The translations under genes and the position numbers were made by a program. A stretch of 64,000 bases of DNA, from NCBI GenBank assembly GCA_903813345.2, contig CAIIXF020000007.1, forward strand, positions 2,053,730 to 2,117,729, read 5' to 3'. Origin of the DNA: Owenia fusiformis (Eukaryota > Annelida > Polychaeta > Sabellida > Oweniidae). Shown here in pieces: positions 9,551 to 49,763 of the stretch. Position 1 is the stretch's first letter; each line of letters opens with the position of its first letter. The notes beneath the pieces were generated by a model that was not told the origin of the DNA, ran no database searches, and worked only from the letters and a program-made list of their open reading frames with translations.

Positions 9551-9648
9551 TATATTCACATGCATTTGTAGACTCTCTAGCTAGCACTATGGTACATCTA
9601 GGATGATAAGCATTTTCTTTTTTCTTCAGATTACTGTCCATTGTTGCA

Positions 9649-10913
9649 ATGTCTGACCCAGCATATCCACCGCCGGATAACAAAGGGAACTTTGGGAACA
9701 CACCAGCGTATAACGATCCAAACATCCCACCTCAACCAAGCATGCCTCCTCAAGGGGGATATGGTATGCAGCCCAATCCTTATGGAGCTCCACCACCTGG
9801 TCAATACGGTGGTGCACACCCAGGGGCTTATTACGGACCCCCTCCCCCGGGAAATTATGGGGGACAATATGGGGGACAATATGGCGGACAAAATCAACCA
9901 CCACAAAACGTGATCATTCATACCCAACCACAACCAACCACTCAAACTGTGGTGGTTTCACCAGGCATCCGGCCGAGTGACAACTTGGCCCTCGCTATCT
10001 TCACGACGCTTTGTTGCAACCTTCTCTTTGGTAAGACTTTCACAATTGTGCTAATTTTCATTTGAGTTTTTGTAGTCACGTACCTAACATCATTTTTAAA
10101 ATATACAAAGTGAATAAACTAAAATAAATTGTGCTCGTATTCATTTGAATATTGTATAGCATATTTAAAATATATAAAATGCACAAAACTACATAAAACC
10201 AATATATTATTTGCACTGATGTATATGATATACCAATTTCTCAAAAATTATATTGTGTTTTTAAAAACAGAAGCAAAATGTTGGTTACATTATCTCGTCT
10301 GGCATGGAAACTCATTCTATTGTACCAATGTATTCCTGGGAATGCATTGCTCTGGCCATATGAATTCGAAATACACTCTACTATACCTTGCATTTGGTGT
10401 TCATGAGCAACCCATTTGGCCTATCAGTAATGCTTATGTTATTTGTTTTTATGTGTCTGCTGCTTATGAATGGTATATTGGATGACTGTTAAATGTTAAT
10501 AAAGTACTTTCAAAAATATACTAAACAATACAATTAGACAAACAGAATGGCTCATGCATTTCTAGGGGTTAGGTATAGTAGAGTGAAATACCTTGATGGA
10601 TAAGGACAGGGCCGACCTCTGTGAAATCTCTGATTTCCTCCTAATGAGGAAGGGGCAAGATCTGGATGGGGACCCATGTCATGGACCAAGATGTAACCCG
10701 GATGTTATTATATTTTCAGGCATCATCGCAATAATATTCTCGGTGATGTCGTCATCAGACGCAGATGCTGGGGACATGGAGAGTGCAAGAACGAAAGGAA
10801 GGATATCTATGGGACTTAGTATTGCAGGGATAGTGTTGACCATTATCGCCATTGTATTTGTTATCATCTATTTCACAGTTATCGTCAGTTCTGCATTAAG
10901 CATCTTTGGCTAG
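9649..10913 (+). CDS. CD225/dispanin family membrane protein, gene 1
   Basis: Two coding exons, 9649-10030 and 10720-10913, joined across a phase-1 Gly codon (G|GC), 191 residues. A splice acceptor (TTTTTTCTTCAG) lies 20 bp before the ATG, so a non-coding 5' exon must exist upstream. Residues 1-110 are rich in Pro, Gly, Gln and Tyr (including a GGQYGGQYGGQ run). The CD225 domain follows: first hydrophobic segment about 112-137 with the Cys pair 122-123, a polar loop with GD at 145-146 and basic residues ARTKGR, and a second hydrophobic segment about 159-183. CD225 proteins include IFITMs, PRRT1 and SYNDIG1, which sit in plasma or endosomal membranes; the Cys pair is where relatives are palmitoylated. 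Unlike its two neighbours it lacks a PPxY motif. Which subfamily it belongs to cannot be told. Confidence 0.9.
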
Positions 10914-14858: not shown

Positions 14859-14862
14859 GAAT

Positions 14863-17307
14863 ATGTCAAAACAAATGCCCCCGCCAGAATATAATACTCC
14901 CACTGGACCATATGGAGGTGGCTACCCAAGCGCCAATTACGGACCCCAGCCCCAAGGGAATTATGGGCAGTATCCACCTCCAGCAGATACACACCACGTG
15001 GTCCTTAGTAGCCAACCACAACCTATGACCAACACCATAGTAGTGCAGTCTCCAGTGATTCGGCCAAGCAGTTACTTGATCCTTGCTATTTTCACCACCA
15101 TTTGCTGCAATCTTGTATTTGGTGAGAGATTTAAAGTATAATCATTAAACAGGTGTCACGTAGTAAGCTTAGAACTACTGAAACAGTTAAAGGTTATATT
15201 TAATTGCTAATTTATTCAAAATAAACATTCGAAAATATGTAGGCCTAAATGCGCACGATGATTAAGAAGGACAAAATGTGAGTCCGGTTTTAACAACCTG
15301 AACAAAGAATTTATGAAAAGAATTTCTAAATATGATCTTTGTACAGTATCCAATTTAATTTAGATAACATGATCTTTGTACAGTATCCAATTCGATTTAG
15401 AAAACATGATCTTTGTACAGTATCCGATTCGATTTAGAAAACATGATCTTTGTACAGTATCCGATTCGATTTAGAAAACATGATCTTTGTACAGTATCCA
15501 ATTCGATTTAGAAAACATGATCTTTGTACAGTATCCAATTCGATTTAGAAAACATGATCTTTGTACAGTACCCAATTCGATTTAGAAAACATGATCTTTG
15601 TACAGTATCCAATTCGATTTAGAAAACATGATCTTTGTACAGGATCCAATTCAATTTAGAAAACATGATCTTTGTACAGTATCCAATTCGATTTAGAAAC
15701 ATGATCTTTGTACAGTATCCAATTCGATTTAGAAAACATGATCTTTGTACAGTATCCAATTCGATTTAGAAAACATGATCTTTGTACAGTATCCAATTCG
15801 ATTTAGAAAACATGATCTTTGTACAGTATCCAATTCGATTTAGAAAACATGATCTTTGTACAGTATCCAATTCAATTAAGAAAACATGATCTTTGTACAG
15901 TATGCAATTCAATTTAGAAAACATGATCTTTGTACAGTATCCAATTCGATTTAGAAAACATGATCTTTGTACAGTATCCAATTCGATTTAGAAAACATGA
16001 TCTTTGTACAGTATCCAATTCGATTTAGAAAACATGATCTTTGTACAGTATCCAATTCGATTTAGAAAACATGATCTTTGTACAGTATCCAATTCGATTT
16101 AGAAAACATGATCTTTGTACAGTATCCAATTCAATTTAGAAAACATGATCTTTGTACAGTATCCAATTCAATTTAGAAAACATGATCTTTGTACAGTATC
16201 CAATTCGATTTAGAAAACATGATCTTTGTACAGTATCCAATTCAATTAAGAAAACATGATCTTTGTACAGTATCCAATTCGATTTAGAAAACATGATCTT
16301 TGTACAGTATCTAGCTAACAGTATCCAATTCGATTTAGAAAACATGATCTTTGTACAGTATCCAATTCGATTTAGAAAACATGATCTTTGTACAGTATCC
16401 AATTCAATTTAGAAAACATGATCTTTGTACAGTATCCAATTCAATTTAGAAAACATGATCTTTGTACAGTATCCAATTCGATTTAGAAAACATGATCTTT
16501 GTACAGTATCAACTTCGATTTAGAAAACATGATCTTTGTACAGTATCCAATTCGATTTAGAAAACATGATCTTTGTACAGTATCCAATTCGATTTAGAAA
16601 ACATGATCTTTGTACAGTATCTAATTCAATTTAGAAAACATGATCTTTGTACAGTATCCAATTCAATTTAGAAAACATGATCTTTGTACAGTATCCAATT
16701 CAATTTAGAAAACATGATCTTTGTACAGTATCCAATTCGATTTAGAAAACATGATCTTTGTACAGTATCCAATTCGATTTAGAAAACATGATCTTTGTAC
16801 AGTATCCAATTCAATTTAGAAAACATGATCTTTGTACAGTATCCAATTCGATTTAGAAAACATGATCTTTGTACAGTATCTAATTCAATTTAGAAAACAT
16901 GATCTTTGTACAGTATCCAATTCAATTTAGAAAACATGATCTTTGTACAGTATCCAATTCAATTTAGAAAACATGATCTTTGTACAGTATCCAATTCGAT
17001 TTAGAAAACATGATCTTTGTACAGTATCCAATTCGATTTAGAAAACATGATCTTTGTACAGTATCCAATTCAATTTAGATGATGACATTACTGTTTTCCA
17101 GGAATCATTGCAATAATATTCTCTGTGATGTCATCATCGAGTGCAGATAATGGAGACCTAGAAGGTGCAAGATCCAAAGGGAAGATTTCAATGATACTTA
17201 GTATCGTTGGGATCGTGATAACCGTACTCATTATCGTATTCATCATCATATATTTTACGGTCATTGTAAGCTCCCTATACCCGTCGTTGTATGATACGTA
17301 TGGATAA
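14863..17307 (+). CDS. CD225/dispanin family membrane protein, gene 2
   Basis: Exons 14863-15121 and 17102-17307, same phase-1 Gly junction as gene 1; 154 residues. The ATG lies three bases after an acceptor (CTTCTTTTCAG), implying an upstream 5'UTR exon. The short N-terminus has PPEY at residues 7-10, a WW-domain (NEDD4-type ligase) ligand also seen in human IFITM3 as PPNY; that link is by family knowledge. Cys pair at 81-82 in the first hydrophobic segment, GD in the loop, then a second long Ile/Val-rich segment. The tail ends SLYPSLYDTYG. The second exon is nearly identical in DNA to that of gene 3, so the two are recent duplicates. The 1.98-kb intron is almost wholly a 37-bp minisatellite. 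A candidate poly(A) signal AATAAA is at 17369. Confidence 0.9.
15341..17080. repeat. 37-bp minisatellite, about 47 units, in the CD225 gene 2 intron
   Basis: Unit 'ccaattcgatttagaaaaca' + 'tgatctttgtacagtat' (37 bp), highly homogeneous. Variants alternate 'ttcgattt' and 'ttcaattt', a few units have one-base changes, and one irregular join is at 16311-16325. The array ends about 20 bp before the splice acceptor of exon 2. Open frames on the minus strand are by-products, because a 37-bp unit cycles through frames. Confidence 0.97.
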
Positions 17308-25487: not shown

Positions 25488-28376
25488 GACAGCAATCAAT
25501 ACAGTTGGTGCTAGCTGAGTCCAGCTCAAGGTGGGTTTGGTTGAAGAGGAAATACAGGTGGTGTCTTTCAGCGAGTGATGGGTAAGATTAGTCATTACTG
25601 TCCCACTCAGCGGAATCATACAGGTTAAGGGACAACATGCTGTTTATACTGAGATACCTGCTGATGGTACTCCCACTCGTTCCCATAGACACTAACCGCG
25701 TTTTTCGTATCCCTGTTAAAATTGTAGAGATGCATCGCCGATGTTTATAGGAAAAAGAATTTTGAATTGATTCAAAGTTGTTGCAAAAATTATGGTTTAC
25801 AGTATTACTAAATATATAAACTGACCGTTGATTGCTTGGATGACTCTCTTGCTATTATCACACAATACTATATACTTAGGCGCTTATACTTATGGGCAGA
25901 GTTCACTCAAGTGGTAAGACCGGCTTGGAGATATCAACCGAGACGCATACATTGAGCTAACACAGTACAGTATATATACAGAGATAAAAAACCAAAACAA
26001 AATTACAGATATCAAAAATTAATACAAAATCACTTTCCTTGATATTTCGTGCCAGTGGACCAACGTTGCTTTAAAGGAGGATTAACAATTTGGAACGACA
26101 AGTGAGTTTTCCAATTATTTAAATCTGTAAATTGGGCGACTTTTTATGAGTCATCTCAATGAATAAGTACACCTAATAGTTGTTCCTGAATGAGGTTCAC
26201 ACAGTGCCTTCTGAAGTAAGAACACATGATTGTGGTTCTGCCAGCACCATTACACATCGTTTGGATGGTGGGATTTGCTTCCAAATGATCGCTTGTACCC
26301 GTATTAGTGCTGATGTTTCTTACTATAGATCTATTCTGAAATGCCGTGTTGTGTTTCGTGTATATTTGCAATACTTTTCAATCTACAGTATTGTATATAA
26401 GTATAAAGTAGTTTAGTATATCGTACACTGTAGTTGTTCGACATAAGGTAGTTAATGGCAACCGTACGGTGACCGTAGCTTCTCAAAATGGCAATAGTAA
26501 TAAGCAGCATAAAATATAGGGATGAGCAGTACTACAGGGTGGGCCAAAAAACCAATACCCAACTTTAAATCAGGATAAAAATAGTTCAATATGGTACATT
26601 GACTTATATATCATTTTAAAGGTATATATTTTCAATCAATTTGGTATATAACATTAGGACATAAAATCAATAGTTAAGGTATATTATACTTATTTGGGAG
26701 GCTGGGTTGCTATTTAAGGTCTCTAGATTTTAGGGAGAAAACGGCAAATCTGTGGAATTATGTAAACTTTTTATTCATAGAATATCATTTTGTTCGGTGA
26801 ATACATGCTTGTATATTTGCATCATTTGTGACTAAAGTTATTATTTATATATTTTCTATATCGATTATTGTTAAGCTCCGGCCGTAGTGACGGAGGCTAA
26901 CGTTGCTAAAGATACCAACAACAACAACAATGAACCACGACTGATGGTCATGTTTATGTTTATGTTTATTGAATCGTATCGTATAGTATACTAGCTCTGT
27001 ATTTTGTATGCCCGCGGTACCAGTGAATTGCGTTAATATTTTAATGAGGTTCCACCCCAGGTATCACTAAAAAGAACAATAAGCCCCGCAGTGCAAATTA
27101 CATGCTCATGTATTTTCAACAAAAAAGCTCATTCAAGCGCACTTACACTCACATAATTATTTTAAAAGACATCACGGTTTATTGCAATCGAACTCCTGTG
27201 GTGCACTAGACTTTATCCTAGACTATAGACTAGACTATATCCTCCTTTTTTTGGAATTTGGAATGAAAATATTCAGACTATAGACCATCTGGGATTGAAA
27301 AATATTTGTTTACATAGGAAGTGCAATTCAAAATGGCCGATGGATTAGATTAATTTGCATATTTGTTACTTCCATTTGTTATTTCCATTTGACAATATCC
27401 TGTGTTACTTTTTATAGCATTTAATTGTACCATAGTGCTTAATTGAATTGTAATAATGTTTATTCTTGGGAAGTAAAGCTTACAAGATATTCGGTCTATT
27501 GGATATAGACTAGTGGTTCACTAGCAACAAGCCGATCGCGGTTGACACACGCGAGCAGTCGACAAGGTACCACAGCGTAATTTAAGGATTTAAGCCTTGG
27601 ACTTGTGCATTGTGTGCTGAACCATTCCATGAACATGTTGTTTCCAAATACTTGCATGACCGCGCAGCGGAAATGCAAAGTTTAGGAAACAATCTGAGTG
27701 GAATGAAGCAGCCACAGTGCATTGTGTCTTTGGCTTAAATTCTTTTCACACATTGCAAAATATTTTCTACAAAATCATTTTAAAGGAACGAAATCACTAA
27801 AAGATCACATTTTCAATGATTTTTTTTACAAGGGTCAAGTTGGCAAGTCATCAAGTCCAATTTGAAAAGTGACTAGTGACCTTGACCACACTATATGTGA
27901 AATAATTTGTTCGGATTGGCTGGAACCAGACACACCTTGCCTAGCTATGTGCGAATAGCGGTTTAAGTGCGCTTGGATGAACTGCTTTTGTTGAAAACGT
28001 GTGAGCCTGTGGGACTCGATGGGGCAAGTGGGATTTTGCCCCATTGGTGTATACCGGGCTTAATTTGCAACGCAAGGGCTCATTGTTCCTTTTCGCGATA
28101 CCCAGCGGGAATACTTATACATTATGCAATGCACTCGCCCGCTGGGAGTTCAAAAACGCAGCCTAAATTAACGCCTTGTCAGAAGCTAAAAGAGCCAATA
28201 ATGTATTTGAGAGTGTACATTACGAGAGAGCAAACTTGTCTATTCATTGCACCTAGCAAATGGTAGTCATACTCCTGAAATTCTATACGTACTAAGATTT
28301 TGACCAGCCAAGCGGTCTCAAAAAGACTAAAGTCTAAACTTTTCTCATTATAATACTAGAATTATTTGTATCTATC
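25488..28376. other. Intergenic before CD225 gene 3
   Basis: No gene supported. A single CAGGGTGGGCCAAAAAACCA end is at 26536-26555 with no partner seen. The 5' exon and promoter of CD225 gene 3 should lie here or further upstream. Confidence 0.5.
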
Positions 28377-28398
28377 ATTCCAGATTCCATTCATTGAT

Positions 28399-30344
28399 AT
28401 GTCTAAACCAGTTCCGCCGCCAGAATATTATCCTCCCCCTGGGCAACAACCAGGACAATATGCTCCCCCTGGGCAACAACCAGGACAATATCCTCCCCCT
28501 GGGCAACAACCAGGACAATATTCCCTCCCTGGGCAACAACCAGGACAATATCCTCCCCCTGGGCAACAATCAGGACAATATCCTCCCCCTGGGCAACAGG
28601 GAGGTGGCTACCCGAGCGCCAATTACGGACCACCACCCCAAGGGAATTATGGGCAGTATCAACCTTCATTGGATCCACAACACGTAGTCCTTAGCAGCCA
28701 ACCACAACCTATGACCAACACCGTAGTGGTGCAGTCTCCAATGGTTCGGCCAAGCAGTTACTTGATCCTTGCTATTTTCACAACTATTTGCTGCAATCCT
28801 ATCTTTGGTGAGATGCTATTAATTGTAAAATTTTTCATCTTGATTTTGTATACAACCTTTTGGTACTTTTGGTGCCATAATTGTTGCAATGTTATTGTGT
28901 CTATTCACAAAAGTACCGATTCCTAACAAGTAATACAACATTCATGCATTGTTCTATATAATGTTCAATACTAATTTAATTTCGTGATTTTTCTCATCAC
29001 ATACATTCCCGACATATCACGTGGAAAATACTGAATCCTGAAAGTTGAATTTATGTGGTCAGTCATTAACGCCAATACGCCAGAATTTTGAATACGTGAT
29101 AAAAACTTGAAATTCAAACATCATTGCATGTAGTTATTTCTACTGGTCATTAACAATATCTAAGCTGTTATCTTAAGTATGACATTTAATTAGACTAGCA
29201 ATCTACCAGTTCAAGTGGGTCACCAAGGATCACAGCACCCCATCATATATTGTATTGTAAGTTTTATTCCTTCGTATATTGAAGGGTAAAATATACAACT
29301 GCAATGCTAAATACCTGTATATTGATCGTTTGACCTTGACTTATTCTTGAATTAAAGTGAACTTGTCCAAAGGCCTCGAAAAGTCAAATACCTAGATATT
29401 CACATTCGACTCTAAGATGACCTTGGCCCACAAACATTGACTTTGACCTCGGGTCACCTAATCATGAGTCGCCAAATATTTGGATATTGATCTTTGGCCT
29501 TGGGATCACAGCAGCCCCCAAGATCCTGAAAACGCAAAATAGTTAGAGATTGACCTTTGGCTTTGAGATGGCCTTGACCCACAAACATTATCCTCAGGCC
29601 ACCTAATCATTGGTCGCCAAGGGCCACAGCAGCCCAAAAGACCTTAACTCACCAAATACCTAAACATTGAACTTTGAACTTGGAATGACCTTGACCTAGG
29701 CTACCTGGTCATAGGTCATGGGTTGTTCAGTTTCTTAGTATTCCCAGTTGGGGAACCTACTGTTACCATACTGTCATATTCTATTATTTGTAAAAAGATT
29801 AAAACGTCAAATACCAAGATTTTGACCTTTGACATTGGAAGGACTTTGACCCATAAAGTTGACCTTGACCTCAGATCACCTAATATTCGGTCGACAATGG
29901 TCACATCACAGACAAAGTGTCTTGAAAAGCCAAATACCTAGATATTGAACTTTTACCTTGGAATGACCTTGGTTTCGGACCTTTATAGAATGCCGGACGA
30001 ACGGACGGACCACCATGCTTTATAATAAGATTTTGGGTCGGGTTTATGAGACGACAATTCGATCTAAATGTATTAGCCACCTAAATGGAATTGAAACACA
30101 AATCATATGTCTGATACTATTGATCATATCTTTTACAGGAATCGTTGCAATAATATTCTCTGTGATGTCATCATCGAGTGCAGATAATGGAGACCTAGAA
30201 GGTGCAAGATCCAAAGGGAAGATTTCAATGGGCATTAGTATTGCTGGGATCGTGATAACCGTGCTCATTATAATATTCATCATCATATATTTTACGGTCA
30301 TCGTAAGCTCCCTATACTCGTCGGCGGTTAATAGGTATGGATAA
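28399..30344 (+). CDS. CD225/dispanin family membrane protein, gene 3
   Basis: Exons 28399-28807 and 30139-30344, same phase-1 Gly junction; 204 residues. ATG chosen 17 bp after an acceptor (ATCATTCCAG), matching MSK(P/Q) of gene 2. PPEY is at residues 7-10. Residues 11-70 are six tandem decapeptides of the form YPPPGQQPGQ, encoded by a 30-bp repeat at about 28429-28608; this is the main length difference from gene 2. Cys pair at 131-132, GD in the loop, two hydrophobic segments. In the first segment CCNLVF of gene 2 is CCNPIF here, adding a proline. The low-complexity N-terminus faces the cytosol in relatives, where it can bind WW-domain proteins. The intron contains a degenerate half-site repeat. 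Confidence 0.9.
28429..28608 (+). repeat. 30-bp coding tandem repeat, six units
   Basis: Unit 'tatcctccccctgggcaaca' + 'accaggacaa' encodes the decapeptide repeat of CD225 gene 3. The fourth unit has 'tccctccct' (Ser-Leu-Pro) and the last two vary at the Pro codon. Confidence 0.95.
29200..30016. repeat. Degenerate ~100-bp repeat rich in TGACCTTGACC, in the CD225 gene 3 intron
   Basis: Recurring phrases: 'aaataccta(g/a)atattga', 'cctt(g)ggatgaccttgacc', 'ggtcacctaatcat', 'ggtcgccaaggatcacagcagcccc'. The block ends with 'gccggacgaacggacggacc', a tail I associate with a widespread marine invertebrate repeat family. Confidence 0.75.
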
Positions 30345-33557: not shown

Positions 33558-35192
33558 CACTGTTGCTCATAAATATGGAATATTAGCTTTGGAAGCTCAG
33601 AATTCAAAGTTTGGAGTAAGAGAACATTTATTTGGAGTTGGCTCAGACATTTATTTTCTAGGCAAATCATAACCACATATTTCACCTACAAATCAACATT
33701 TTTTTAGAGAAAAAATATTAACATTTAAGTTAAAAAAATTACTGTTACTTAAACAGGGGTACACTAAGAATTTTTGCATTTTCAAAACACCCTGATCCAA
33801 ATCGTCATGTAAAACAAAACAAACAAAATAAACATCTGGTCTTGAAGATTGAAGTGTTCTCTATCCAATGGTAGCACTAATATGTGTCATGTCCTATTTG
33901 TGCTGCAATCAGAGCATCAACCCTACGGGACCAGCATTGAATGAAACATCTGACCTTTCAAAGTGAAATAAGGCCCCATTCCTCAATCTGGGCAGTGCGT
34001 AACGTGTCTAAATTTTGAGATGGGGGTCCAAGTCACGAATCTCATTACTAAGGTCGTCTCGCATTTACTCTGCATTAGCCTCATTGGCGGACTTTTGTGC
34101 CCATGGTAGCTGATCCACATTGCCTACCCTGATGTAATCCAACACGATGCCACTAGTATATGCAACCGCATGATCATTCTGCAGTCGAATGTTGCCCCAA
34201 AACACTCTGTTAACATGTGGTACTTGATGGAGGTCCAAAAGGTCAATTTACTCGAAATTATGTTTGTGAATCACCAAGGGGGTGCAATTTCTGTAGTACT
34301 GCTCCAAACAACCTCTGTAATACTGCTCCAAACATAAATAGGGCCGCCTTCATGGACTGCCACATCAGTAAGTGTCCTTATTGCCTCTTTCCCCTGGTCT
34401 ACGACAGAAACGAACACAATTATCAACTTTGTGGAGGACACATCTTATTTCTTCACATGCTGTCATATGACACCAAAGATTAGGTCCAACGTTTTGGTGC
34501 TTTCCTGCCCATTGAGGGTACATTTCTTTGTTATGATTAGTCAGCTGTGGTCTCTTTAAAGGTCTCATGGCCTTGCATCGGTTATAAAGAAATCACTAGT
34601 TGTCTATAGCTCTGGAAAACGGGTTTTGAGGTGAGACAGCCATTCATCTCACAGACTACTGGTCGACTTAAAGCGATTTTGATGACATAAATGCAGCAGG
34701 TGGTGGTCTTTTCTTACATTTTTGTCTCTAAGGCTACTATTGCTGTGACCTGGAGTCATATTCCAGTGCCTTTGGTACCACTGCAAAATTTTAGAGACCG
34801 TTCCTGACACACCCCTAGGGTCCTGGCAATGGCAGTTTGTTTTATGCCAGAGAGCGCCATACCTATGACATGCCATGCTCTTTTTCGCTTATTCTATGGG
34901 GCATGCCTTCTAAAAACTCTTTCAACTCTAAATTGATTTTTTATAAAATGTGCACAATGATTACAACTACGATTTGGACACCTCTTTCAAGTTACCAATA
35001 TCATGAGGTCATGGGGTTACCAAGTTTAATCAACCATAAATGTTTTAACTTTTCATACCAATCAGTTTTATATGCAAAACTGATGAGGGAATGAGAACAC
35101 ATTACAAATTTTCATCAAAATGTTATCATTTTGTAGAAATTCCATCGAACAGTTCGTATCTATAAAATATTCCGTATTTATGAGCAACAGTG
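33558..35192 (-). mobile_element. Tc1-like transposon, copy 1, decayed
   Basis: Inverted ends CACTGTTGCTCATAAATATG bounded by TA. The transposase runs on the minus strand and is broken by stops and frameshifts. Visible pieces include a helix-turn-helix stretch with the Tc1-like phrase KQTAIARTLGV (about 34810-34840) and the matching region of copy 2. About 1.63 kb, the usual Tc1 size. It lies directly after the last recognised exon of the SBP gene. Confidence 0.85.
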
Positions 35193-35249
35193 TATATAAA
35201 GTGCCCTTTTTATACATAGGAACGAAAACATGTGTTTTATTACACTTAC

Positions 35250-38200
35250 CCAAGTTGTTGCAGAGTGTGTAGTACCTTTCATTGTCAACAAGTTCATTAA
35301 AACATTTATCAAACCAGGAGAAATCAGAATCTTTTCTGAACATTAATCCTTTTCCACTGGAGCCACATTGAAAAGGCTTGCCGACCAGCCGAAACTCAGA
35401 GTTGGGGAGTGAACCGTCCGATATCAGTATCACGTCTACCTAAAAATACGGAATGGAAAATACCCGTCTATTTGACAAAGTCTGATCCGAGTAAATGCTG
35501 TTTAAAGAAAGGCTGGTTCTAAAAGGTTTGGTTCAGAAGGTCTTGAAACAAGCCGATTAAAAAGTAAAGTTGGAGATAAAAGATGATTCCACAAAAATGG
35601 GATGTCAAATGGTAGATAAATAGTAGTTTCAAAAAAGTGTGATTCCAGAAGGGAAAAGTTCAGCGAAGAGTTTTGTATTTGATTACCACCATATTTGGAT
35701 TTAATTCGTTACCTATACTAAAGCTAAGTCGTATCAAAGCGCCATCAAAGCGCCGTTGGTGTGAACTTAGCTTAATCAAAACTCGAAGAGAAATTAAATC
35801 CAAAAGCTCCTCTTGTGTATCCTCTGTCTTAGGCACAGATACGCAATCAAACAAGTACATTGTCTTTTATAACTGGATGTCGAGAGTAGACATATTATGT
35901 ACACGAATACAATAGAGACCTTTTCTAAAAACTGGGATTCGTACCTTGTTTTCCCTCAGTGCAGAAAACAGGGGACTCCAATTACCACCTTTGATTTCTA
36001 GTTCAATAACATTTTCATCAGAAACGTTGAACCCAAGCTCAGAACGTACACAGTATTTATTCGCGAAGTACGTCTTTGCGAAACCTGAAAAGAAAAGACA
36101 ATACTTTTTTCAAGTTGATCGCATATCAATTGATCTAATGAAGACACTGAAAACCTGTTTTTAGAGTCTTTTGAATATTAAAGTTTTCAATTGACAGATC
36201 ATTAACAAAAAGAAGGTTTGAAAAACTTGGATATCAGTAAGAATATCAGTATACATGTCGCATATGACAGACTTTGTAAGTAACATCTGTCTACAAGAAA
36301 CAGTTTCACCCTGTATAGGGAGTCTTCCCTGTACGTACACTGCTGAATCCTGAATATATTGCGGCCTGATAGATGTATTTCACTTACCGATCTTGTGATC
36401 TAATCTAAGATCGGTAAACTGTACAATTCCTGTGTCAAATCTGGTCACAACTATGGTTTGTTCACTTTTCATTAGAGGTGCACTGAACGAAAACATGTTC
36501 TCCAAATAAATGCTATTGGTTGCATCCATGCATGCGTCATAATAACCATTCCGCAAACCTGGAGATGCAAAGAAAACAGCATGGACTATGGATTACTACA
36601 GAACAAGGCCTGGACCCGATGAGAAAAAACTCCCGTAGAAAATAGCTAAATTTTGTACTTTTTACTAATGTGTTTTTTAATTGTTTTTGAAGGACTAGAA
36701 GGTGTAGGTAGACATGTAAACAAAAATAAATGAATCCCGTTTTATTTAAGAAATATAAACCAAAGAGCAGGGGCTATTCACAAAAGCTTTCGAACCACTC
36801 TTCGGTCGTTCGGGGTACAGAAAACGTTTGTGCCTAGCCTGCGGGGTGTATTCGACAATATTACCTCTGCTCGGAGGTCTATATTACGATTGGAACATGA
36901 AAATGACGTCACATGTTACACGTATTACCGGGGGTATTGATCGCGAATATACCCGGGTGAAATGTTGACTTTGTTTACAGTTTATATTAGGCGTGAATAC
37001 AGTCATGTTGGAATAATGAATATATCCGCAGCCTGGCTTCGGAAATTAAGAAAAAACTAGGGATTAGAGAATATTTTTGATAATTTATTGTAAGCTCTGA
37101 TGTGGCTTTCCTTGGGTCTCTTCATTACTTCTCATGAACCCATTGAAAATACCAGCACGATGTAGTCTATTTTACTGAAAGGAAAACTTCATTTAATAAA
37201 TATTTCTGGATTTACTGTACAAATGGCTTCAAATATTTAAACTAGTCTATAAAACAGATTCTGTTTTGAAAGTTGATCAAGAAAGGTCATAAATTACTGA
37301 AATGGTGATTTATGTGTTGTATCAGTCACCAACAGTAAAGTATTACCTTTGAATGCAGCCGTGCATGACTCCAAAAAACGATCAGTTGGATTCCCCGGTA
37401 ACAACGTAAATTCACATCTCCTACCACAATGCTCACATGTTTCCCTTACAAGCTGAGCAGTAAATCCATCTATCGTTTGCCCAGTGAAAGTAAAAGTCCT
37501 ATAACGGATATACTATAAAATTTAATCTCATTTGATTCAGTTTTACATGATATATAGAGGGCATTGCATGTCCAGATCACCAGAACATGAAATATAGGGT
37601 TAGCACGAACAAATTATTTTGGTATGCGATGATCTCAGAGACCCGAGGACTGTATGGCCCATTTATACGTGATGTTTTGAATGCAGTTTCTCCTGCTTCT
37701 TAAACAGCCTTCTCTCAGTTTCCTTTCTAGAATGATTCTTGTGCATTGCAAAGATGGTCTGAGTATCAGAATGCAGTACATGTCACCTCCAAGAACTGTT
37801 AGATACTTCAGAGAGAGTGTGGTGTAGCTACTGTAGTTGAGAGGGGGTGTTGCTTGTGGGCCCGCTAATGGGGCAGTGACTTAAGGCGAAATGTTAAATT
37901 TCTAGCATGATCCAGCAATGAGAGTGACCCAAAACTGGATGTGTTCGACCACTTTATTTCTATCCAGATCGAATGAGAAATGTTTGTTGTTAATATTTTA
38001 AAGTTTAATGGATGTGGATGATATTTGATCTAGAAATGACGTAATTTGTTGAATAAAAACATACGTTTTCGAACTTTACCCATTTTCGGCCAGTTATAGG
38101 TAATTATGTATCGTAAAGCCTGTACCTTAGGTAAAATACCCCTTATACAAACTACGTATATAGGTATAGGTACGTGCAAATGGGTTATTTACGCTCATCT

Positions 38201-41200
38201 TAACCTCCCTATTGTCTTCCACCTTTTCCCAAAACAAATTACCTATCACGTTCCAATCTTTCAAATTCTTCAAGCTCTGTACACAAGCCTTCATTTCCAT
38301 CTATATCACTCTTGTCTTCATATCTATCATCTGCATCAGCTTCATTTGCACCATCAATATCACATACCGCCATGTCTTGGACACATGGTGGTGTGGGGAA
38401 TTCCTCAACAGTATAACAATACGCACTGATGCCTGAAATATGAACGTGTATCCCATACCTCATGTGGTTCTAGGTACATGAGTGAGAATATTTGAGTATA
38501 CAGCGCATAGGATACAGGAGAGATACTTCAGTATTTACCCATTTTCGCCCAGGTGGAGGACGTAGAACATAAACCAGCTTTTAAATGGTTCATGGTACAG
38601 TATGGTATAATATAGGACTATCTCTATGAACAACACGTCATCAAATCATTAGAAACTGAAGTTTCTTTCAATTCTTTTTCTATTTCAAATGGTTTAGTCA
38701 AATATGACGCGATCCTTGTTCATAAAGTTTTTTTAATATTATAAATGTATCAAACGTGCTTGTTTCATAATATTTTCTCTCTGTGAACACATACACTATG
38801 GCAATTAGTTTGAAAACGATAAATCTCTCTTAGCTCAATGGTAAATATACCAACTTAAGTACATATGAAGAACAAATAAGTTGGATCAAAATAGAACTGG
38901 AAACGTTGAAGTTAAGATATTTCGTGTTTCGATAATATACTAAAACCACGCAGAATCAATAATCTTACTAGATACACAATCTACAAGCACTTTGCATTAG
39001 GATTAGTGTTGGTTTAATGTTGTTTGACTGTTTAATTCATTACACATGTTCAAAAATTTGTAGACACATACTTTCTGTGGTATTGTTTTTATGTCAACTA
39101 GTTTGTACCACTCCCTCACAAAACATATTCCTCCTTCTTACCTTTTAAAATTACTTAAACGTTCGAATTCGAAACGCATGGTTGAGGAGGGCACACTTTA
39201 AAAATCTGGTTTCTTAAAATGAGGTACTAGAGTCACGTGATGTCTTCGACAAGCTAGACTTTCCAGAGGGGTTGCACAAATATGGACTCTTTAACCCGAT
39301 CCTTTCAGAATGAAAAACTTTAACACGTGAATATTTGGTAGTAGGTTAGTAATGTGATGTTTAAAAGGAGGGGAAAATGGACAGAACAATTTCAACACAG
39401 AACATGCACTATACCCGAACAAATCTCTGAAGAGGGGACTCACCCCATTTATTGCACAAGAATGTGTAGTAGCCACTGTACGCCACTTGGCCGAGGCACT
39501 GCTCGAACCAGGTGAAGTCGAAGTCCTTTCGGTGCATGAAGCTATAACCAGAATCCGCACATTGTACTGGTTCGCCTAAAATCAGAGGTTAACTCAAACA
39601 TGCTACAAGTACAATAAATCAAAAACGGGTGATCAATTTTTCACATCACCTCCATTCATTCAGACATTTGCAACAGTCCTATCCAAAAGCTCTGGTACAT
39701 ATTAAAACATACATTTTTCAAATTGACTCTCATTATAGGATGCAATTCACATCATTAAATTCATTTACCTTATATAATAGTTTTAAATTCGCTTTAATTG
39801 CTTTCTAGAAATTTAACACTTTGGCTAGATGTTAGAAAGCATATAACATCATAGGCCGAATATTAGAAAACTCCACAACATGCTCCCATGTCGCGATTTC
39901 AGCCGAATTTATACAGATTATGTTTTAATCATTTATTACATGATTTTCCATAAAATAAAAGTAGACATTTTGAAATTTTAGCCCAAAAGTGAAAACTAAG
40001 GTACATGTACCTAATATTAGTTGGAGGAAATTGTTCAAATACCTTTGGAGTAGGATATGTCCAAAATGAGCTGAAAAGTTCATTTTCGGCAATAAAAGTG
40101 GCGGCAACGTTGAATAACCAAGTCTTTATAGATATTATCGTATCTTTAAAATAAGCTGTATATAATACTGTATAGGAAGCAAATTAATGGAACACTTTTG
40201 GTGTTATGACCAAAGAGACGTAAAAGTGGCGGCTATTTTGAAAACAGGGGAGTTTTGAACTGGGAAGCTTAGTTTTTTCGTTGATTTTTTTCAGTCGATA
40301 ATTAACAGGAAGGATTTAGTTAAGTGGACTTTTATCGACAGAGTTATGAAACTACCACTGTTGTTCACTTGCAGACGGACAAATGTACGTAATTGCAAAA
40401 GCGTAACGTGTGAGTTGAAAACCGCAACTCAATTGGAGAAAAGTTGCTCACGGGCTTGATGGGTAACATCACATAATGATGTCAATCATTTAAAGTTCAT
40501 GTCTTTCTATAAAATTAAAGCTTTGAAAATAAAATTAAAGGTTCTTCACCTATTCGCTGAAGCGAAGTGTCTGAATAGGGAAACATGACGTCATCATAAT
40601 CTACAAGTATTACATCAACCTGCAAATCGAAATACAAACACATACTTTTTGATTATTTAGTTTCCTCATTAGATAAAAATGAAGTTTCATTAATCACTTG
40701 GTTTTAGTTCTTAGTCTAGATTTTTGTCGACAGTATACGTGAAAACAGAAAACAATTAAAGGCCATGACACCAGGTTCAATTCGCCATACCTGCTCTAGA
40801 TCGTTCCTAGTGCCTTTTAAGGCATCAACCATGGGCGCCCAGAAGTCATTGAACGTGAGATTGAACTCTATTAGATTTTCATCATTTACATCTACCCCAA
40901 GTTTGTTACGTAAACAGTATTTGTCAGCATAGAAGCTCCGTGCAACACCTAAATCAAATAAACAATATTTATCACTATCGTGCGTTTAGAACTAGTTTAG
41001 AGGATGAAAGTGATCGTCATGATTTGACAATGCATTTTGTAATTTCTTACCGATCTTATGATTTGATGTGATATCCTTTAAACTGTTTATATCGCTGCTT
41101 GCTAAAGTATATGCAATACTTCTGAACGGGTGGCCCCATGGTGCGCTGTACGAAAATGTGTTTTTACGTTGAACTGTAGGTGTACCTCCAGCACAAACAT

Positions 41201-44200
41201 CAAAATGGTGATTGTTTAGACCTGTAAAACAAATGGAAGAACTAGGAAGGTTAAATGCATGATTGAATAAACAGGAAACAATTCACACATGGTCTATCAT
41301 AAACATATACGAAATATCAACATCATTTTCTCATTAAATAAAACCGAGATGTTATCTGGGCGAGTACCTGTGCCTGCTGAAAGACAAGCTTCCATATTTT
41401 CTCCAGGGCCATCATTCGGTAGGACTACAACTTCACATTTTCTTCCACACTGTTCGCATACTGTTCTTATAAGATCGTGCGCAAAGCCATCTGGTTCTTG
41501 TGACAGAGGGTTTCTATGAGGTGAAAATGTATTGGAATTGAATTTCAAGTATACTGTATGTACAGGGTGTTTCATAATGACCGTCCCCCCATCAACCACC
41601 AACCACCAATCCCAAATAGCATACCAGCATATGTTAACTTATATATCATATGAAAGCTTGTTCAATTCTAGACTAATTAAAACAGTTTTGAATAAGCTCA
41701 ATAGTCTTTACAACTTGCTACATACCTCTACAAAAGGTACCCATTTTTCATTAAGCATAGAATCTGATAGCTACTTTTTTTCCAAAATAAGCCACGTGCC
41801 CTTCAAACAGCTATGATAACCATGCCTCAATACACTATTATCTAAAGTAATGTTCAACTTATAAACATTTGATGGATGCTGGAAATATACCCAATGATAT
41901 TTTAAAGAAAAAAGTATTAAATATTTCAAAGAAGTACCCAGAGAGCTCTTGGTGATTCAATGGATTATATAGCAATATGCTCCTCTCTTTAATCCATTAG
42001 AAATGGTAGCCACAAATCACATAAACTGAGGGTATATTACTTCCTGCGAAAGCTATTTCGATTTTGATATAATAGCTTTCCCACGGAGCATTTGGACAGC
42101 TCAATGATCGTGACCTTTGAAATCGAATTAAGTCGATCCGCGGCTTACTTTTGGTCTCTAACTGTGTCTTACATCAGTATCATCAATCCGTGTAAGTATT
42201 GGAGCGCTGGAGTACTTCTTTTTCGACCAAGACTTGTAATTGTTAGTCGAGTGAATCGTTTTACTGCCAAATTCCAATATGGCGGTTTCTGCTCGGACAT
42301 TTTCGTAAATCTCCGGAGGTTGTCCGAACCTAACTAATTCTCAAAATTCATTTCGTTCGTTGCGTATCTCGCACCTAGCAAACCGCCATATTGGAAATAG
42401 GTCTGTAAAACTTTAACTCGATGAACAATTTACAAGTCTTGATCGAAAAAGAAGTACTCCAGCGCTCCAAGTCTTGATCGAAAAAGAAGTACTCCAGCGC
42501 TCCAATACTTACACGGATTGATGATACTGATGTAAGACACAGTTAGAGACCAAAAGTAAGCCGCGGATCGACTTAATTCAATTTCAAAGGTCACTATTGA
42601 TGAGCTGTTCACTTCTCCGTTTGAGAGCCATAAGTTTCAAAATCTAACATGGCTCTCGAAGTGAGTAAAGGGTATAGTGACTATCAAACATAAGTTTGCA
42701 AATTATGTTTTCATTGACCAGTGCTAACATTTGGCACATAAGTCCAGAATTGAATAACCTTTACTATGGCGTATAGATTATGGGGCCACGTGATCTAGGA
42801 TTGACTGTGGCTAGGGGGACGGTCATTATAAAACACCCTGTACATGGACATGATGAAGGTTGTGTACCCAACCACAGCTAGTATGCAGTTATGATTTGGG
42901 GCAAGCTCAAATCATGATCTATATCCATTGTTACTTTCTCTAGATATAGATCATGATCTGGACTTACCCCAAATCATAACTGCATTCTGACTGTGTACGC
43001 AGCCGCAAGTTTCAAAAAACATAACGAAATCATATCACTGTAGACATCTATACACCCCATGCAGACAGATCGCATATAATTACATTCGTATAATGCGCGA
43101 CTCGAAATTCACCAGAAAAGTAGAAACATTTTGTCACCCATGAAGGAAATTAGTATTTTACTGCTTAATAAATGGTCAAGGACAGTTACATTGAATACTA
43201 TAAGTACGAGAATAGCATGACGTCTTGATATTTCAAGGTAACTCTTTCGAAAAGTGATGGCGGTGATCGAAATTACGATGTAAAGATGAAACCGTAATGA
43301 AATATTTGAAGATTTCTTTGGAAATCCAAGAAATATACATCACATATCGGATTTTTCAAAAAATAAGTCCTGCAGGTCAGATTCCCCCTTGTAGCATTAC
43401 CATTGGTCTCATACATATCATACAATTAATATTTGAAATACAGCTATCATTCGAACTATAAGTATGATGTTACTTTATTAATATTACATTGAAGTACATA
43501 TCATACTTATGTCCGATCATAAGTTCGAATAGTAGTTGGGTTTCAAATATTGACCAAGTATGACTCATATACGAGACCAATGTTAATGCTACCAAGGGGA
43601 ATCAGACCTTCATGCCTTACTATTTATACATGTATGACTAAGTATATTGCTTAGTTTTTCAAAGAAATCGACTAATATTCGTTGCGGTTTTATCTTTACG
43701 ATCGTCATTTCAATCGACGTCATCATTTTTCGAACGAGTTACGTTGAAATATCAAGACGGCATGCTATTCTCAAACTTGTAGAATATAAAATGACTGTCA
43801 TTCATCATTTATTAAGCAATAAAAAATTTATTTGCATCATGGGTGGCAAAATGTTTCTCCTTTCCTTGTGAATGTCGAGTCTTACATCATCCGAATGTAA
43901 TTTTAGGCGATCTGTCTGCATGGGTTGCATCTATAACTATAAACTATTAAGCTTAGTATGAACTATTAAACTTAGTACACTGTTGCTCATAAATATGGAA
44001 TATTTTACAGATGCGAACTGTTCGATGGAATTTCTACAAAATGGTAACATTTTGATGAAAATTTGTTATGTGTTCTCATTCCCTCATCAGTTTTGGATAT
44101 AAAACTGATTGGTATGAAAAATTAAAACATTTATGGTTGACTAAACTTGTATTCACTCAGGTGACCCCATGACCTCATGATATTGGTAACTTGAAAGAGG

Positions 44201-47200
44201 TGTCCAAATCTTAGTTGTAATCATTGTGCACAATTTATAAAAATTTAATTTAGAGTTGGAAGAGTTTTTAGAAGGCATGCCCCATAGAATAAGCGAAAAA
44301 GAGCATGGCAGGTCATAGGGATGGCGCTCTCTGGCATGAAACAAACTGCCATTGCCAGGACCCTAGGGGTGTGTCAGGAACAGTCTCTAAAATTCTGCAG
44401 TGGTACCAAAGGCACTGGAATATGACTCTAGGTCACAGCAATAGTACCCCTAGAGAGAAAAATGTAAGAAAAGACCCCCACCTGCTGCATTTATGCCATC
44501 AAAATCGCTTTAAGTCAACCAGTAGTCTACGAGATGAATGGCTGTCTCACCTCAAAACCCGTGTTCCAGAGCTATAGACAACCAGTGATTTCTTTATAAC
44601 GGATGCAAGGCCATGAGACCTTTAAAGAGTCCACAGCTGACTGATCATAACAAAGAAAGGTACCTTCAATGGGCAGGAAAGCACCAAAACGTTGGACCTA
44701 ATCGTTGGTGTAATATGACAGCATGTGAAGAAATAAGATGTGTCCTCCACAAAGTTGATAATTGTGTTCGTTTCTGTCGTAGACTCGGGGAAAGAGACAA
44801 TAAGGACACTTACTGATGTGACAGTCCATGAAGGCGACCCTATTTATATTTGGAGCAGTATTACAGAGGTTGTTTGGAGCAGTACTACAGAAATTGCACC
44901 CCCTTGGTGATTCCCAAACATAATTTCATAGTAAATTGGCTTTTTGGACCTCCATCAAGTACCACATGTAAACATAGTGTTTTGGGGCAACATTCAACTG
45001 CAGAGTGATCATCCTGTTGCATATGCTAGTGGCATTGTGTTGGATTACACCAGGGCAGGCAATGTGGACCAGCTACCATGGGCACCAAAGTCAGCCAATC
45101 AGGCTAATGCAGAGCAAATGTGGGACGACCTTGGTAATGAGATTCGTGACTTGGACCCCCACCTCAAAATTTAGACACGTTACGCACTGCCCAGATTGAG
45201 GAATGGGGCCTTATTTCGCTTTGAAAGGTCAGATGTTTCATTCAATGCTGGTCCCGTAGGGTTGATGCTCTGATTGCAGCACAAAGAGGACATAACACAT
45301 ATTAGTGCTATCATTGGATAGAGGACACTTCAATCTTCATGACCAGATGTTTATTTTGTTTGATCTGTTTTACATGTATGACGTGCACGGACCTGGGGAC
45401 AATTCGGGAAATACGGGCTGATTTCAGCTTTGAGCGTTAATCTCTGCCTTATTTAAAAAGCTAGCTATGTGTTTTATATATCATTTTGAAGTATTTTTTA
45501 TTCGCATTTCAGTGAAATTATTTTTTCTTCAAAATTTTGATGGGATCCAACATATTTTTAAAGTTAAACATATCCCAAAATCGTCAAATACGCTGTAAGA
45601 CGTAACACTTTACACTTACAGGGCTCGTTGAAATTGGGATAACTTTTGAAATAATGATCAAAATCCCACTAAAATTTCACAATTTATTCAATGGAACATG
45701 TTCATTTATGACGTCACAATTGCTTAACGGTTACAGTTTAAATTATCATATATGAACGCTTTTAAAATTTTCAAAATTGTGTAAGGTTTTGAAGGCGAAT
45801 GGGACGAGCAATAAGTTTACCTTCATTTAACCTTCTAGAGTCCATTTCACTGCTTCAGTTCGTCAGTAGAACGGCAAAAATAAGAAATTGGGAGACCATT
45901 GTGCAATAATATATAGAAAAGTATATTCATAATGTACATGAATGACATTTGTATATCTTGGATTGCTTCTAGTTTGGCTTATAAAGTGTGTGGCCTCTTA
46001 TATTTGGATGTTTCTCTGCCATGTTATTTTCAATAAGATTAACATGGCTGAAATTCTTCAAATTACAAGACGGCACAGGCTTATTGCACAAAAAACTAAA
46101 AAATCTGAAATATACAAATGTCATTCATGAACATTATGAATATACTTTTCCATATATTATTGCACAATAGTCTCCCAATTTCTTATTTTTGCCGTTCTAC
46201 TGACGAACTGAAGCAGTGAAATGGACTCTAATTCAAGTCTGATATGAAAGAAAAATTAACTGCACAATATTGTCATGGCGAAATTTACAAAACAATAACC
46301 AGTTTGTTTATTTTGCAAATAATATTAAAATAAGAGCTGGTTTTCGAGACTTGAAAAAAATGTGACGCATCGATTTTCTACCACAAATTCCATACATATC
46401 AATTTTTACCAACGCCCCAAGTGGATTTCTTGACCGTTTTCCAAAATTCAAAAACATTTTAGAAATATTGTCCTCGAGATCTTGCTACCCTGTGAATTTT
46501 GTCATGATTAGATAAGGATAAAGTATTTTATTTTTAGGTTGACTAAACTTGACAAAAATGTGACGCTTGTCGTTTTTGACGTTCTAAGGCTGTTTGCGCC
46601 CTATGCTGCTCATTGTTTTGTCTTGGTTTTTTGACGCCATAATCACGGGGGATAAGCAAAACGAGGGCGAAGCCACGGACTGCGACTCGCGTAACTTTAC
46701 ACCGCAGCCCAGCGCCAAAATGGAGGGACATTCGGCAGTGCCTTCTGCTTCTTCAAACAAAATAGAGAAATCCAGGTATTTTAAATGCTATCGTAGTGTC
46801 TAATCGGTGACCAAAATATTACTCTGTATCTACTGTTGGTCTGTAGATAAGAAAATAAGCAGTTGTCCAGATCAAGCTAAAACAGTAGCAAAGTTCTGAT
46901 TTTACCTGTAAAATATGTGCATATTATTTAATTTACTATACATTTGAAAGGAGTTTTAACACGTTTCTGATATCTAAAGGTTAGTTGAGGCTCCGAGTAT
47001 AATTCGTGAAAATGATTTGATAATAGAATGTGTTCATGAGGAGAAAATTAGATTCAAACTGCGCATTCATAGTGGACGCAGTCCAGTAAACAAAGCTATT
47101 TCAACAACGCAACACAGACTCCATTGATATTCTAAGCAACGCAGTCCAGCCGCGAACACGAAATAAATAAGATAGTGTAAACTATATTCCTGGTGACAAC

Positions 47201-49763
47201 GTAATATGTTTATTACAAACCAATTTGTGGATAGGGTTAAATATATAGATAATTGGATAGTGGTGAGACTTTTTATAAGAAGTAGAAATGCGAAACAATT
47301 AACTTTTTGATGATGCAATAAAAGCTGTTGGGGAAGGGTACATTAACTAGTATTTAAGATATTAGGAAAATATCAAATAATTGGAGAGTTGGTGAGTTAA
47401 TGTAATTTTGGATGATCTTTCCAACAGTCCATCAATATTGCTAGCTACCGTAAATTCATGATTTCAGCTGTATTTGACAGCTTGTATATATTTGCAGAAT
47501 GGATTGAGACACGATGTAGGTCTATTAAAATAGCCCTTTATATTCAATTTTGTCCAAAGTTGCTCCATTTCGGCCACACCTGTACACACATTGTGCTATC
47601 TACCTTTGGCTGTGATTGCGTTCAGCTTCAGATATAAAGCAACACTGAGTCGCGGACTGCGTTGGGCAGATGGATGGACTGCGACTATTATAAATTCCAA
47701 TTTTCTATGTAATTGTACGTTTTCCGCTTACCAAATATCACACGAAGATGTAATTGTAACAACAGAACATGAATAATTATATTAATTCGATGTCATTTCT
47801 GATTCCTTTGTTTAAATCGGTATATTAGGGACAAATATTGACAAAATTACATTTTTTTGTGGCAGATTTCGAATTCATTTGTGTTCATGCTAAACTATTG
47901 GACAGCCGAGCACCAAGAACGCCATTGCAGGTGGAGTATGAATATGTTGATCACCGACTGGAACATACTAGCTATTCTGTAGAATATCCAAACCAATAAT
48001 CTACCCCAAATCCTAACATGCCTTCCAAATTAAGTTTGGACTTACCGCCATTGTTCAGCTATAATGCGTTGTAACCTCGTTTTGAATTACGCGAGTCGCA
48101 GTCCGTGGCTTCGCCCTCGTTTTGCTTATCCCCCGTGATAATGTTACGCTAATTGTCCCCAGTTTCGTGCGACGTGTAATGACGATTTGTATCGGGGTGT
48201 TTTGAAAATGCAAAAATTCTTAGCGTACCCCTGTTTAAGTAACAGTAATTTTCTAAACTCAAATGTTAATATTTTTCTCTAAAACATGTTGATTTGTAGG
48301 TGAAATATGTGGTTATGATTTGCCTAGAAAATAAATGTCTGAGCCAACTCCAAATAAATGTTCTCTTACTCCAAACTTTGAATTCTGAGCTGCCAAATCT
48401 AATATTCCATATTTATGAGCAACAGTGTACATTCAAACATGTATGTGCGAATTTAAAAAAGTGTTTTTCGTAAAATGGAAAACAAGTCTTTACTCTGTAG
48501 CATGCATATATTCGAATCAAAGAATTAACCAAGAAATTTTGAAGTTCTTCACCGTTTTATATTGATTTGCTTATCATGAAATTAAAGCATATTTGTTTAT
48601 TCTGCACAAATGGCATTGTGATTGCTCCAAGGGATAATTTAACCATTGAAACGTTATAATGATTGCTAAGTGAATGTATAACTTACATGAAAGACGCTGG
48701 GTACCATCCAATCTCTGTGCCAAATATGAATGTCCTGAAATTTTGAAATTATGAATTGTAAACCATGATAATTTAATTATAAGTGAACATCTCCGCAAGA
48801 GTAGTCATCAGTTGTAATTAACGCCTCTAGGTTCGATGTCTGCTTGCTAATTTTGGGGAAGAGAATTATTCATACCGTATGCATTTATAAATTTGTAAAT
48901 TATGGCTTTAATTCTAAAACATCATCGGACTTCTGAGCTTAAATTAGTCAAATATTTGTGGTTCAATCAAACCTAAAAATAAGCAATCAAAGGACCACAA
49001 TGCAATATTCATAAAGGAAAATATTTTTACAGTATATTTTATTGAAGTATTTTGTAGTTTTTGAAATTTAAGTAGTGTCGGCCATGTTCATAATTGGTGA
49101 CGCAGCAGTTATCAAGAATCGTGGAACATGGGGCGAGCACATCATTAATTAATCAGGCATGTCTGTTGATGCCACGTAACATCTGCGTGATTTAAGATTG
49201 GGGGACCTTTATTGTTCCCACATAAAATTAGACCTTCCTCTAAAACATGTTAGAATATTAGCCGCTCTTTAGTGCGGGTAATAATTGAGATTATTTGCAA
49301 GGATCCACTTTTTGGACCACCCTATTTTGTTAGGATATCATATTCACCTCTCCCGTTCAATTCTCTCCATTTCCTCGCGTTCTGATGCTTCCTTTGCACA
49401 AGCATCCGGTTCTTTAGGTAGCTCCTCTATATCTATATCTTTGACAATAGTTTTGTTTTCTTTGGGATCGTCTGTTACTTCACATACAGGGGCAGGTGTG
49501 GTGTATATTGGGCACTCTTGTGAACTTTCTTCAGTTGGTTCAGGTATTGTTGGTTGAGGAGTTGGCGTCACGGGTGGACTGGTTGGTGTAAGGGGTGGAC
49601 TGGTTGGTGTAAGGGGTTGACTGGTTGGTGTAAGGGGTTGACTGGTTGGTGTAAGGGGTGGACTGGTTGGTGAGGGTGTTGTTTGAATAACGTCATCACA
49701 TATATGTTGTCTTTGACATGCGAGACTTCCACTTACCAAGACTAACAGTATTAATACCCGCAT
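35250..49763 (-). CDS. Secreted tandem SBP-family-3-like (periplasmic-binding-fold) protein; 3' end not found
   Basis: Twelve minus-strand exons with GT/AG borders and matching phases: 49763-49348, 48734-48687, 41513-41368, 41221-41051, 40948-40791, 40619-40550, 39575-39444, 38432-38243, 37498-37347, 36558-36388, 36084-35945, 35439-35250; at least 661 residues. Residues 1-15 (MRVLILLVLVSGSLA) are a signal peptide; a stalk of LTPTSxP heptads follows. Domain 1 is about 139-380, an acidic Cys-containing linker about 381-444, domain 2 about 445-661. Both domains have ...GF...L(I/V)R..CE.CGR.CE, then D.C......(F)S(Y/F)SAP, then K.YC(L/V)R...G, then VDVIL, then (L)MFRKDSDFSWFDKC-like ends. This is the order of an amino-acid-type solute-binding domain. 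No channel helices or membrane anchor is seen, so it is not an ionotropic glutamate receptor. Each domain is preceded by ER(I/L)ER(E/D)R. Ligand and role are unknown. The start at 49763 follows an acceptor (TTATTTTAG), so a 5'UTR exon lies upstream. Confidence 0.85.
36559..37346. other. Intron 9 of the SBP gene
   Basis: No exon or clear repeat; only short palindromic pieces near 36790-36960. Confidence 0.4.
37499..38242. other. Intron 8 of the SBP gene
   Basis: No further exon or repeat recognised. Confidence 0.4.
38433..39443. other. Intron 7 of the SBP gene
   Basis: No further exon or repeat recognised in this 1.0-kb intron, which separates domain 1 from the linker exon. Confidence 0.4.
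39576..40549. other. Intron 6 of the SBP gene
   Basis: AT-rich, no exon found. Confidence 0.4.
41563..42840. mobile_element. TA-flanked CAGGGTGTTTCATAATGACC element enclosing a long foldback
   Basis: Ends CAGGGTGTTTCATAATGACC and, inverted, CAGGGTGTTTTATAATGACC, bounded by TA. Inside, 42078-42250 and 42468-42615 are long inverted arms ('ggagcgctggagtacttctttttcg' and complement), with a short duplicate at 42436-42500. It lies 49 bp upstream of exon 3 of the SBP gene. No transposase. Confidence 0.85.
42876..42994. repeat. Hairpin repeat
   Basis: Arms 'gcagttatgatttggggcaa ... gatcatgatctatatc' and complement, with a short loop 'cattgttactttctc'. Confidence 0.8.
43054..43928. mobile_element. 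Foldback element, ~875 bp
   Basis: Arms of about 400 bp: 'catgcagacagatcgc' at the left end against 'gcgatctgtctgcatg' at the right, continuing diverged inward and meeting at 'attcgaactataagtatgat ... atcatacttatgtccgatcataagttcgaat'. No coding capacity. Confidence 0.8.
45384..48178. mobile_element. Element nested in the Tc1 copy
   Basis: Comparison with the uninterrupted copy 1 shows the insertion point in 'tttacatgacgatttg'. ATGACG occurs on both sides (45378-45383, 48179-48184). Inner ends share CTGGGGACAATT in inverted orientation. Inside are another inverted pair (46641-46694 with 48087-48142, 'cacgggggataagcaaaacg' ...) and a hairpin at 45838-46232. GGACTGCG or its complement recurs about six times. 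No transposase recognised. Exact ends uncertain. Confidence 0.7.
45838..46232. repeat. Long hairpin inside the nested element
   Basis: Arms about 140 bp, from 'agagtccatttcactgcttc' to its complement, meeting around 46000; spacer about 100 bp. Confidence 0.85.
49575..49679 (-). repeat. 21-bp coding tandem repeat (LTPTSxP)
   Basis: Five units of 'actggttggtgtaaggggt(t/g)g' in exon 1 of the SBP gene encode the Thr/Pro stalk, a likely mucin-type glycosylation region. Confidence 0.9.

Follow-up and report, generated by a model that had tools for sequence, protein, structure and literature searches.

A putative secreted, cysteine-rich Venus-flytrap protein of Owenia fusiformis, from an animal gene family built on a bacterial-type amino-acid-binding domain

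Why would an annelid gene carry two bacterial-type solute-binding domains in tandem, with introns and without a channel? Free-standing secreted binding proteins of family 3 are a bacterial trait, and in animals the fold is known from within glutamate receptors, whose binding domains belong to the same fold class as the family-3 proteins. The gene lies in a stretch of 64,000 nucleotides of Owenia fusiformis DNA (here, the window), for which an earlier examination of the letters alone (the sequence-only reading) had proposed a spliced, secreted protein with two such domains. The analysis below makes it probable that the gene product is secreted, that it is a cysteine-rich Venus-flytrap protein, one of an animal family based on the SBP family 3 (amino-acid-binding) domain, and that the first of its domains, D1, captures amino-acid-like ligands.

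The gene occupies the minus strand from 49763 to 35250. Its 12 exons, once joined, give 1984 bases encoding 661 amino acids with no stop codon; all 11 acceptors are AG, all 12 donors are GT, and the phases are consistent, which bears out the splicing first proposed. From the N- to the C-terminus, the protein is made up of a signal-peptide-like start, a Thr/Pro stalk, D1, an acidic stalk, and the second domain, D2. Exon 1 (49348–49763) contains the start codon, the signal-peptide-like segment, the Thr/Pro stalk, and a charged linker; the N-terminus, MRVLILLVLVSGSLA, resembles a signal peptide (judged from the sequence rather than by a predictor), and the stalk is encoded by a 21-bp tandem repeat (49561–49672, 5.3 copies); both elements had been proposed in the sequence-only reading. 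D1 is encoded by exons 2 to 7: the first strand and loop by exon 2 (48687–48734), the first helix region with a Cys cluster by exon 3 (41368–41513), the ligand-type Arg by exon 4 (41051–41221), the start of the second lobe by exon 5 (40791–40948), the acidic ligand-side strand (VDVILVD) by exon 6 (40550–40619), and the C-terminal part by exon 7 (39444–39575). The acidic inter-domain stalk corresponds to exon 8 (38243–38432). D2 begins, without the first-strand loop, in exon 9 (37347–37498), has Leu in the ligand-Arg column in exon 10 (36388–36558), and continues with the start of its second lobe in exon 11 (35945–36084) and its C-terminal part in exon 12 (35250–35439). Past residue 40, the 19-residue Kyte–Doolittle mean reaches a maximum of 0.70 in the exons found, and this part of the protein thus has no further membrane-like stretch.

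Exon 2 is only 48 nt long. Scored with a matrix made from the first strands of 12 paralogs, its 15 residues, TFIFGTEIGWYPASF, reach 35.0; with the same matrix, the runner-up site in the window scores 18.2, and five mononucleotide-shuffled windows give at most 26.5. The exons of D1 and D2 correspond in phase and order; the exceptions are the missing counterpart of exon 2 in D2 and the fusion of the last two exons of D2. In a tblastn search with the protein, D1 was matched with D2 residues at 5e-15 at best, intron included. The repetition of the exon plan argues that D1 and D2 are, on sequence grounds, a tandem domain duplication and not chance open frames. The two domains of the sequence-only reading are in tandem but unequal, D2 having neither the ligand Arg nor the loop of the first strand. 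No convincing first-strand exon for D2 was found in the 744-bp intron preceding exon 9, and no third domain was found within the window by tblastn.

The gene is adjoined by tandem CD225 (IFITM/dispanin-like) genes at 10587–10910 and 29967–30341, both on the plus strand and both matching PF04505. Similar proline-rich open frames lie at 9610–10062, 14791–15138, and 28360–28923; the one at 9610–10062 itself matches nothing in Pfam. The window also contains a satellite at 15328–17079 with 37-bp units (about 97% matches), for which a 111-bp period was also called.

The identity of the domains was established with the Pfam profile SBP_bac_3 (PF00497). The joined protein, as a 645-residue query that omits exon 2, matches this profile at 4.5e-13 in two stretches, which agrees, at the level of a sequence profile, with the two tandem family-3-like domains first described. 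The match of the joined exons amounts to 49.5 bits versus a curated cut-off of 26.4, and D1 alone reaches 37.9 bits. When the genome was searched with PF00497 in six frames, exon by exon, none of the 25 matches listed falls on the window gene or on the 17 family loci described below; the Pfam match therefore needs the exons to be joined. D1 is a complete PF00497 domain, and D2, with no first-strand exon, shows a 14-residue gap. D2 alone gives a weak match to the PDB (E 0.13). The amino-terminal domain of receptors, PF01094, gave no match at E ≤ 10 with the 645-residue query (without exon 2 and the 3′ exon).

The sequence-only reading had considered a single protein. That protein is real, but its gene belongs to a family of 17 or more loci; the 17 recognized, with no fewer than three exon types each, are the window gene, L001–L014, L040, and L041. 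The census was based on genome searches with three family proteins and on searches of individual loci in a genome of 498 Mb and 525 contigs, and its counts are lower bounds. Contig C7 holds 11 of the 17 loci. Four of these (the window gene, L008, L040, and L041) lie within about 0.1 Mb; the last three, to the right of the window and on the opposite strand, form a small cluster with the window gene. Outside the count of 17 are two more places on C1, with two and four exon types, and isolated matches on C524, at C7:15036721, and at C2:30.57–30.62 Mb, some with stops. All the genome matches to the family, PF00497, PF00060, and PF10613 lie on C1–C12, except for one place on C524. One candidate, L015 (C6:656619, E 0.29), was dropped after the search of that locus gave no family match. 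Tandem domains were seen only in the window gene, the other loci showing one domain each in the stretches examined, whose flanks were short, and in L007, a signal-peptide-like start lies within the first-strand exon.

All 11 domains that could be spliced and aligned, from 10 loci, match PF00497 at E ≤ 1; L005, L008, L009, L012, L014, L040, and L041 were left out of this alignment (exon missing or weak, or locus added later). Nei–Gojobori dN/dS values are 0.25 for L011/L013 (227 codons), 0.14 for L013/L014 (169 codons, with only 6 changes), and 0.29 for L040/L041 (164 codons). On these estimates, purifying selection is acting in the three paralog pairs tested, none of which includes the window gene.

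Exon 12 runs up to a GT donor and leaves the reading frame in phase 1, which means that at least one further 3′ exon follows. No such exon was found by tblastx among 15 downstream stretches or then among 14, several of them extended; in the second comparison, alignments that contained stops or that paired L011, L013, and L014 with one another had been removed beforehand. The downstream matches obtained were interpreted as probable repeats or products of recent duplication. A repeat element is present in two inverted copies, 94–95% complementary, at 33806–35194 and 43976–45376; the first ends about 55 bp past the last exon found and the second is inside the long D1 intron, and two of the open frames of the element have no Pfam match. 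This element may conceal the 3′ exon or have displaced it.

One possibility is then that the missing exon encodes a single membrane helix or a GPI anchor, such that the protein would be a receptor-like surface protein, a sensor of its ligand and not a carrier. Long stalks are common among surface proteins, the phase-1 ending at a donor leaves room for an anchor, and two of three pore-less receptor-like genes of the same genome (L017 and L039, see below) have hydrophobic tails. Against this, the search yielded no candidate 3′ exon, nor one conserved among the 14 downstream stretches, although this is absence of evidence. We regard an anchored protein as a serious minority possibility and a secreted one as the better reading; a free, soluble form is a candidate.

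What D1 might bind is suggested by the family alignment. The Arg column of the family, which we take to be that of the ligand-carboxylate Arg of amino-acid-binding proteins and glutamate receptors, contains Arg in 9 of the 11 domains (D1 and eight paralogs), Leu in D2, and Ile in L006. An Asp of D1, five residues past the first Asp of VDVILVD, presumably stands at the place of the ligand-side Asp of the same proteins. In most paralogs the acid comes one residue later, and hence the ligand chemistry is not uniform across the family. Each of the 11 domains has seven to nine cysteines, and five cysteine columns are invariant in all of them. The D1 positions C39 and C225 are Cys in 9 of 11, and both are Ala in L011 and L013; such a joint loss is the pattern expected of a putative disulfide pair, though L011 and L013 are close relatives and may represent one event.

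On the placement of the Arg and Asp, D1 would close on a small extracellular ligand with an α-carboxylate and an amino group, and an extracellular binder of the amino-acid type, acting via D1, is mechanistically plausible. D2 would be the product of the domain duplication, with its ligand chemistry lost, and might bind a different ligand, interact with a protein partner, or act only as a scaffold. Another explanation is that the domain no longer binds small molecules at all and has become a structural or protein-binding module. D2, without first-strand loop and Arg, and L006, without Arg, would fit such a module; the retention of the Arg in 9 of 11 domains, D1 among them, makes it unlikely for the family. 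If D1 does bind amino-acid-like molecules, the likeliest use of the protein would be their extracellular capture or presentation, whether they come from the environment, the diet, or microbes; the protein itself includes neither an ABC importer part nor a channel.

A further explanation is that the protein is the ligand-binding domain of a glutamate receptor minus its channel. The pore of a receptor separates the two halves of its binding domain; this is the arrangement in L018, from the same genome, where PF10613 ends at residue 229 and PF00060 starts at 246. In the window gene, the corresponding insertion point falls inside exon 4 for D1 and inside exon 10 for D2, where the sequence is uninterrupted, and no PF00060 match is listed at the gene, which supports the absence of a pore that had been noted at the outset. 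A receptor fragment with overlooked pore exons was also rejected. Among the 31 PF00060 and 44 PF10613 genome matches listed, in searches that score just the top candidates, none is on the 17 family loci.

The genome does contain other genes that look exactly like a receptor domain without its channel, a point in favour of the receptor explanation. These pore-less receptor-like genes are found at four places: L016, 366–1004 (+); L017, 164–898 (−); L039, 284–1009 (+); and C1:14936261–14936797 (−). All four match PF10613, with the halves continuous in one exon and no PF00060 listed nearby. L017 and L039 have a hydrophobic, GPI-signal-like C-terminal tail, and L016 and L017 have His-rich segments. 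By their sequences, these four look like true pore-less receptor-like proteins.

The SBP family differs from them. At E ≤ 1, neither PF10613 nor PF00060 is listed for any of its 11 domains, whereas PF10613 is found in 3 of 3 pore-less receptor-like exons (L016, L017, and L039). At E ≤ 1, the family profile matches 141 different PDB sequences, of which the top 60 were examined: the first is the ancestral protein AncQR (3.9e-11, profile positions 5–230 of 231), which is followed by bacterial binding proteins for glutamine, arginine, lysine, and histidine, and the top glutamate receptor, glutamate receptor 2, comes at 0.0023 with a partial match over 101 of 231 positions. The likening of the fold to the receptor part remains valid for the fold class, but the nearer relatives are in bacterial family 3. 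The NCBIfam model TIGR01096 (lysine/arginine/ornithine binding protein) is matched by 8 of the 11 members at E ≤ 1; nothing is listed for D1. Profile–profile scores are 103 for family versus bacterial, 33 for family versus receptor-like, and 52 for bacterial versus receptor-like, with a bias towards bacteria, since the four bacterial proteins (set against two receptor-like domains) had been picked as hits to a family member, and with small sets on either side. Bacterial proteins outscore receptors in the PDB comparison also, and a receptor domain that lost its channel is an improbable account of the protein, with a top receptor match of 0.0023 in its favour; channel loss from a glutamate receptor is probably not the origin of the family, to judge from these profiles.

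Scans for prokaryotic and viral relatives with two short conserved patterns, which miss distant relatives, gave 64 matches in the genomes of 84,980 prokaryote species and 41 in viral contigs, and none of either was confirmed. A tblastn search of plasmids with one paralog found 86 records with E ≤ 1; among the full-length ones, the best is a Paraburkholderia ABC substrate-binding protein (25% identical, 2e-5), and another match reaches 34% over half the domain, the best among the matches listed. With about 25% identity to bacterial matches and none confirmed by the scans, a recent donor is not visible. The sequence-only reading had concluded from the exon structure against simple bacterial contamination. 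Contamination or a mis-assembled pseudogene, to which the bacterial type of the domain might point, is scarcely credible, given the 12 exons spliced in frame on a 39.8-Mb contig, the identical exon plan at paralogous loci on contigs of 35–41 Mb, and the purifying selection on paralogs. An old bacterial acquisition, followed by intron gain and duplication, appears more likely than a glutamate receptor that lost its pore; alternatively to transfer, the domain may have had a long ancestry within animals.

A wider proposal can be made tentatively: that some 20 amino-acid-binding genes, anciently acquired from bacteria and having since gained introns and disulfides, form a lineage-wide secreted system that catches amino-acid-like molecules, dissolved or microbial, outside the cell and has no transporter or channel as its partner, whether of the bacterial or of the receptor kind. 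To our knowledge, ABC importers of the bacterial binding-protein kind are not known from animals. If the preferred reading is correct, the family would be a second, channel-free animal use of the fold, under purifying selection; it would bear on the origin of the receptor binding domains and would be a candidate for the extracellular capture of amino acids or microbial metabolites in marine invertebrates. The literature searched, which covers few subscription journals, contained no account of secreted SBP_bac_3 proteins from animals; for SBP_bac_3 and metazoa, the papers found concern fungi (PMC11291939) and marine bacteria, and further papers deal, by title and abstract, with bacteria, microbial communities, virus capsid homologs, or tRNA-synthetase-like proteins.

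How does the family compare with known systems? SBP_bac_3 genes are reported to have moved into anaerobic gut fungi by horizontal transfer, another case of a bacterial domain in a eukaryote; those genes were assigned to named prokaryotic donor groups (PMC11291939), whereas the Owenia family has no visible donor. The four pore-less receptor-like genes of Owenia (L016, L017, L039, and C1:14936261) share with the window family an extracellular-type binding domain without a channel; unlike it, they match PF10613 and are likely to have had a separate origin. The IRs and the ionotropic glutamate receptors (PF10613, PF00060) are likewise extracellular, animal, and of the same fold class, and the window gene differs from them in having no pore, no receptor-family match, and no PF01094. 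With respect to bacterial family 3 (PF00497; LAO/ArgT, HisJ, GlnH, and AncQR), the window gene differs in its introns, its stalks, its tandem domains, and its lack of an ABC transporter part in the protein, and the family differs in its seven to nine cysteines per domain (11 domains) and its low identity (about 25% over the whole domain and, among the matches listed, at most 34% over half of it). It is nevertheless with these bacterial proteins that it shares a profile match over the whole domain, the carboxylate-type Arg of D1, and a contiguous, pore-free domain.
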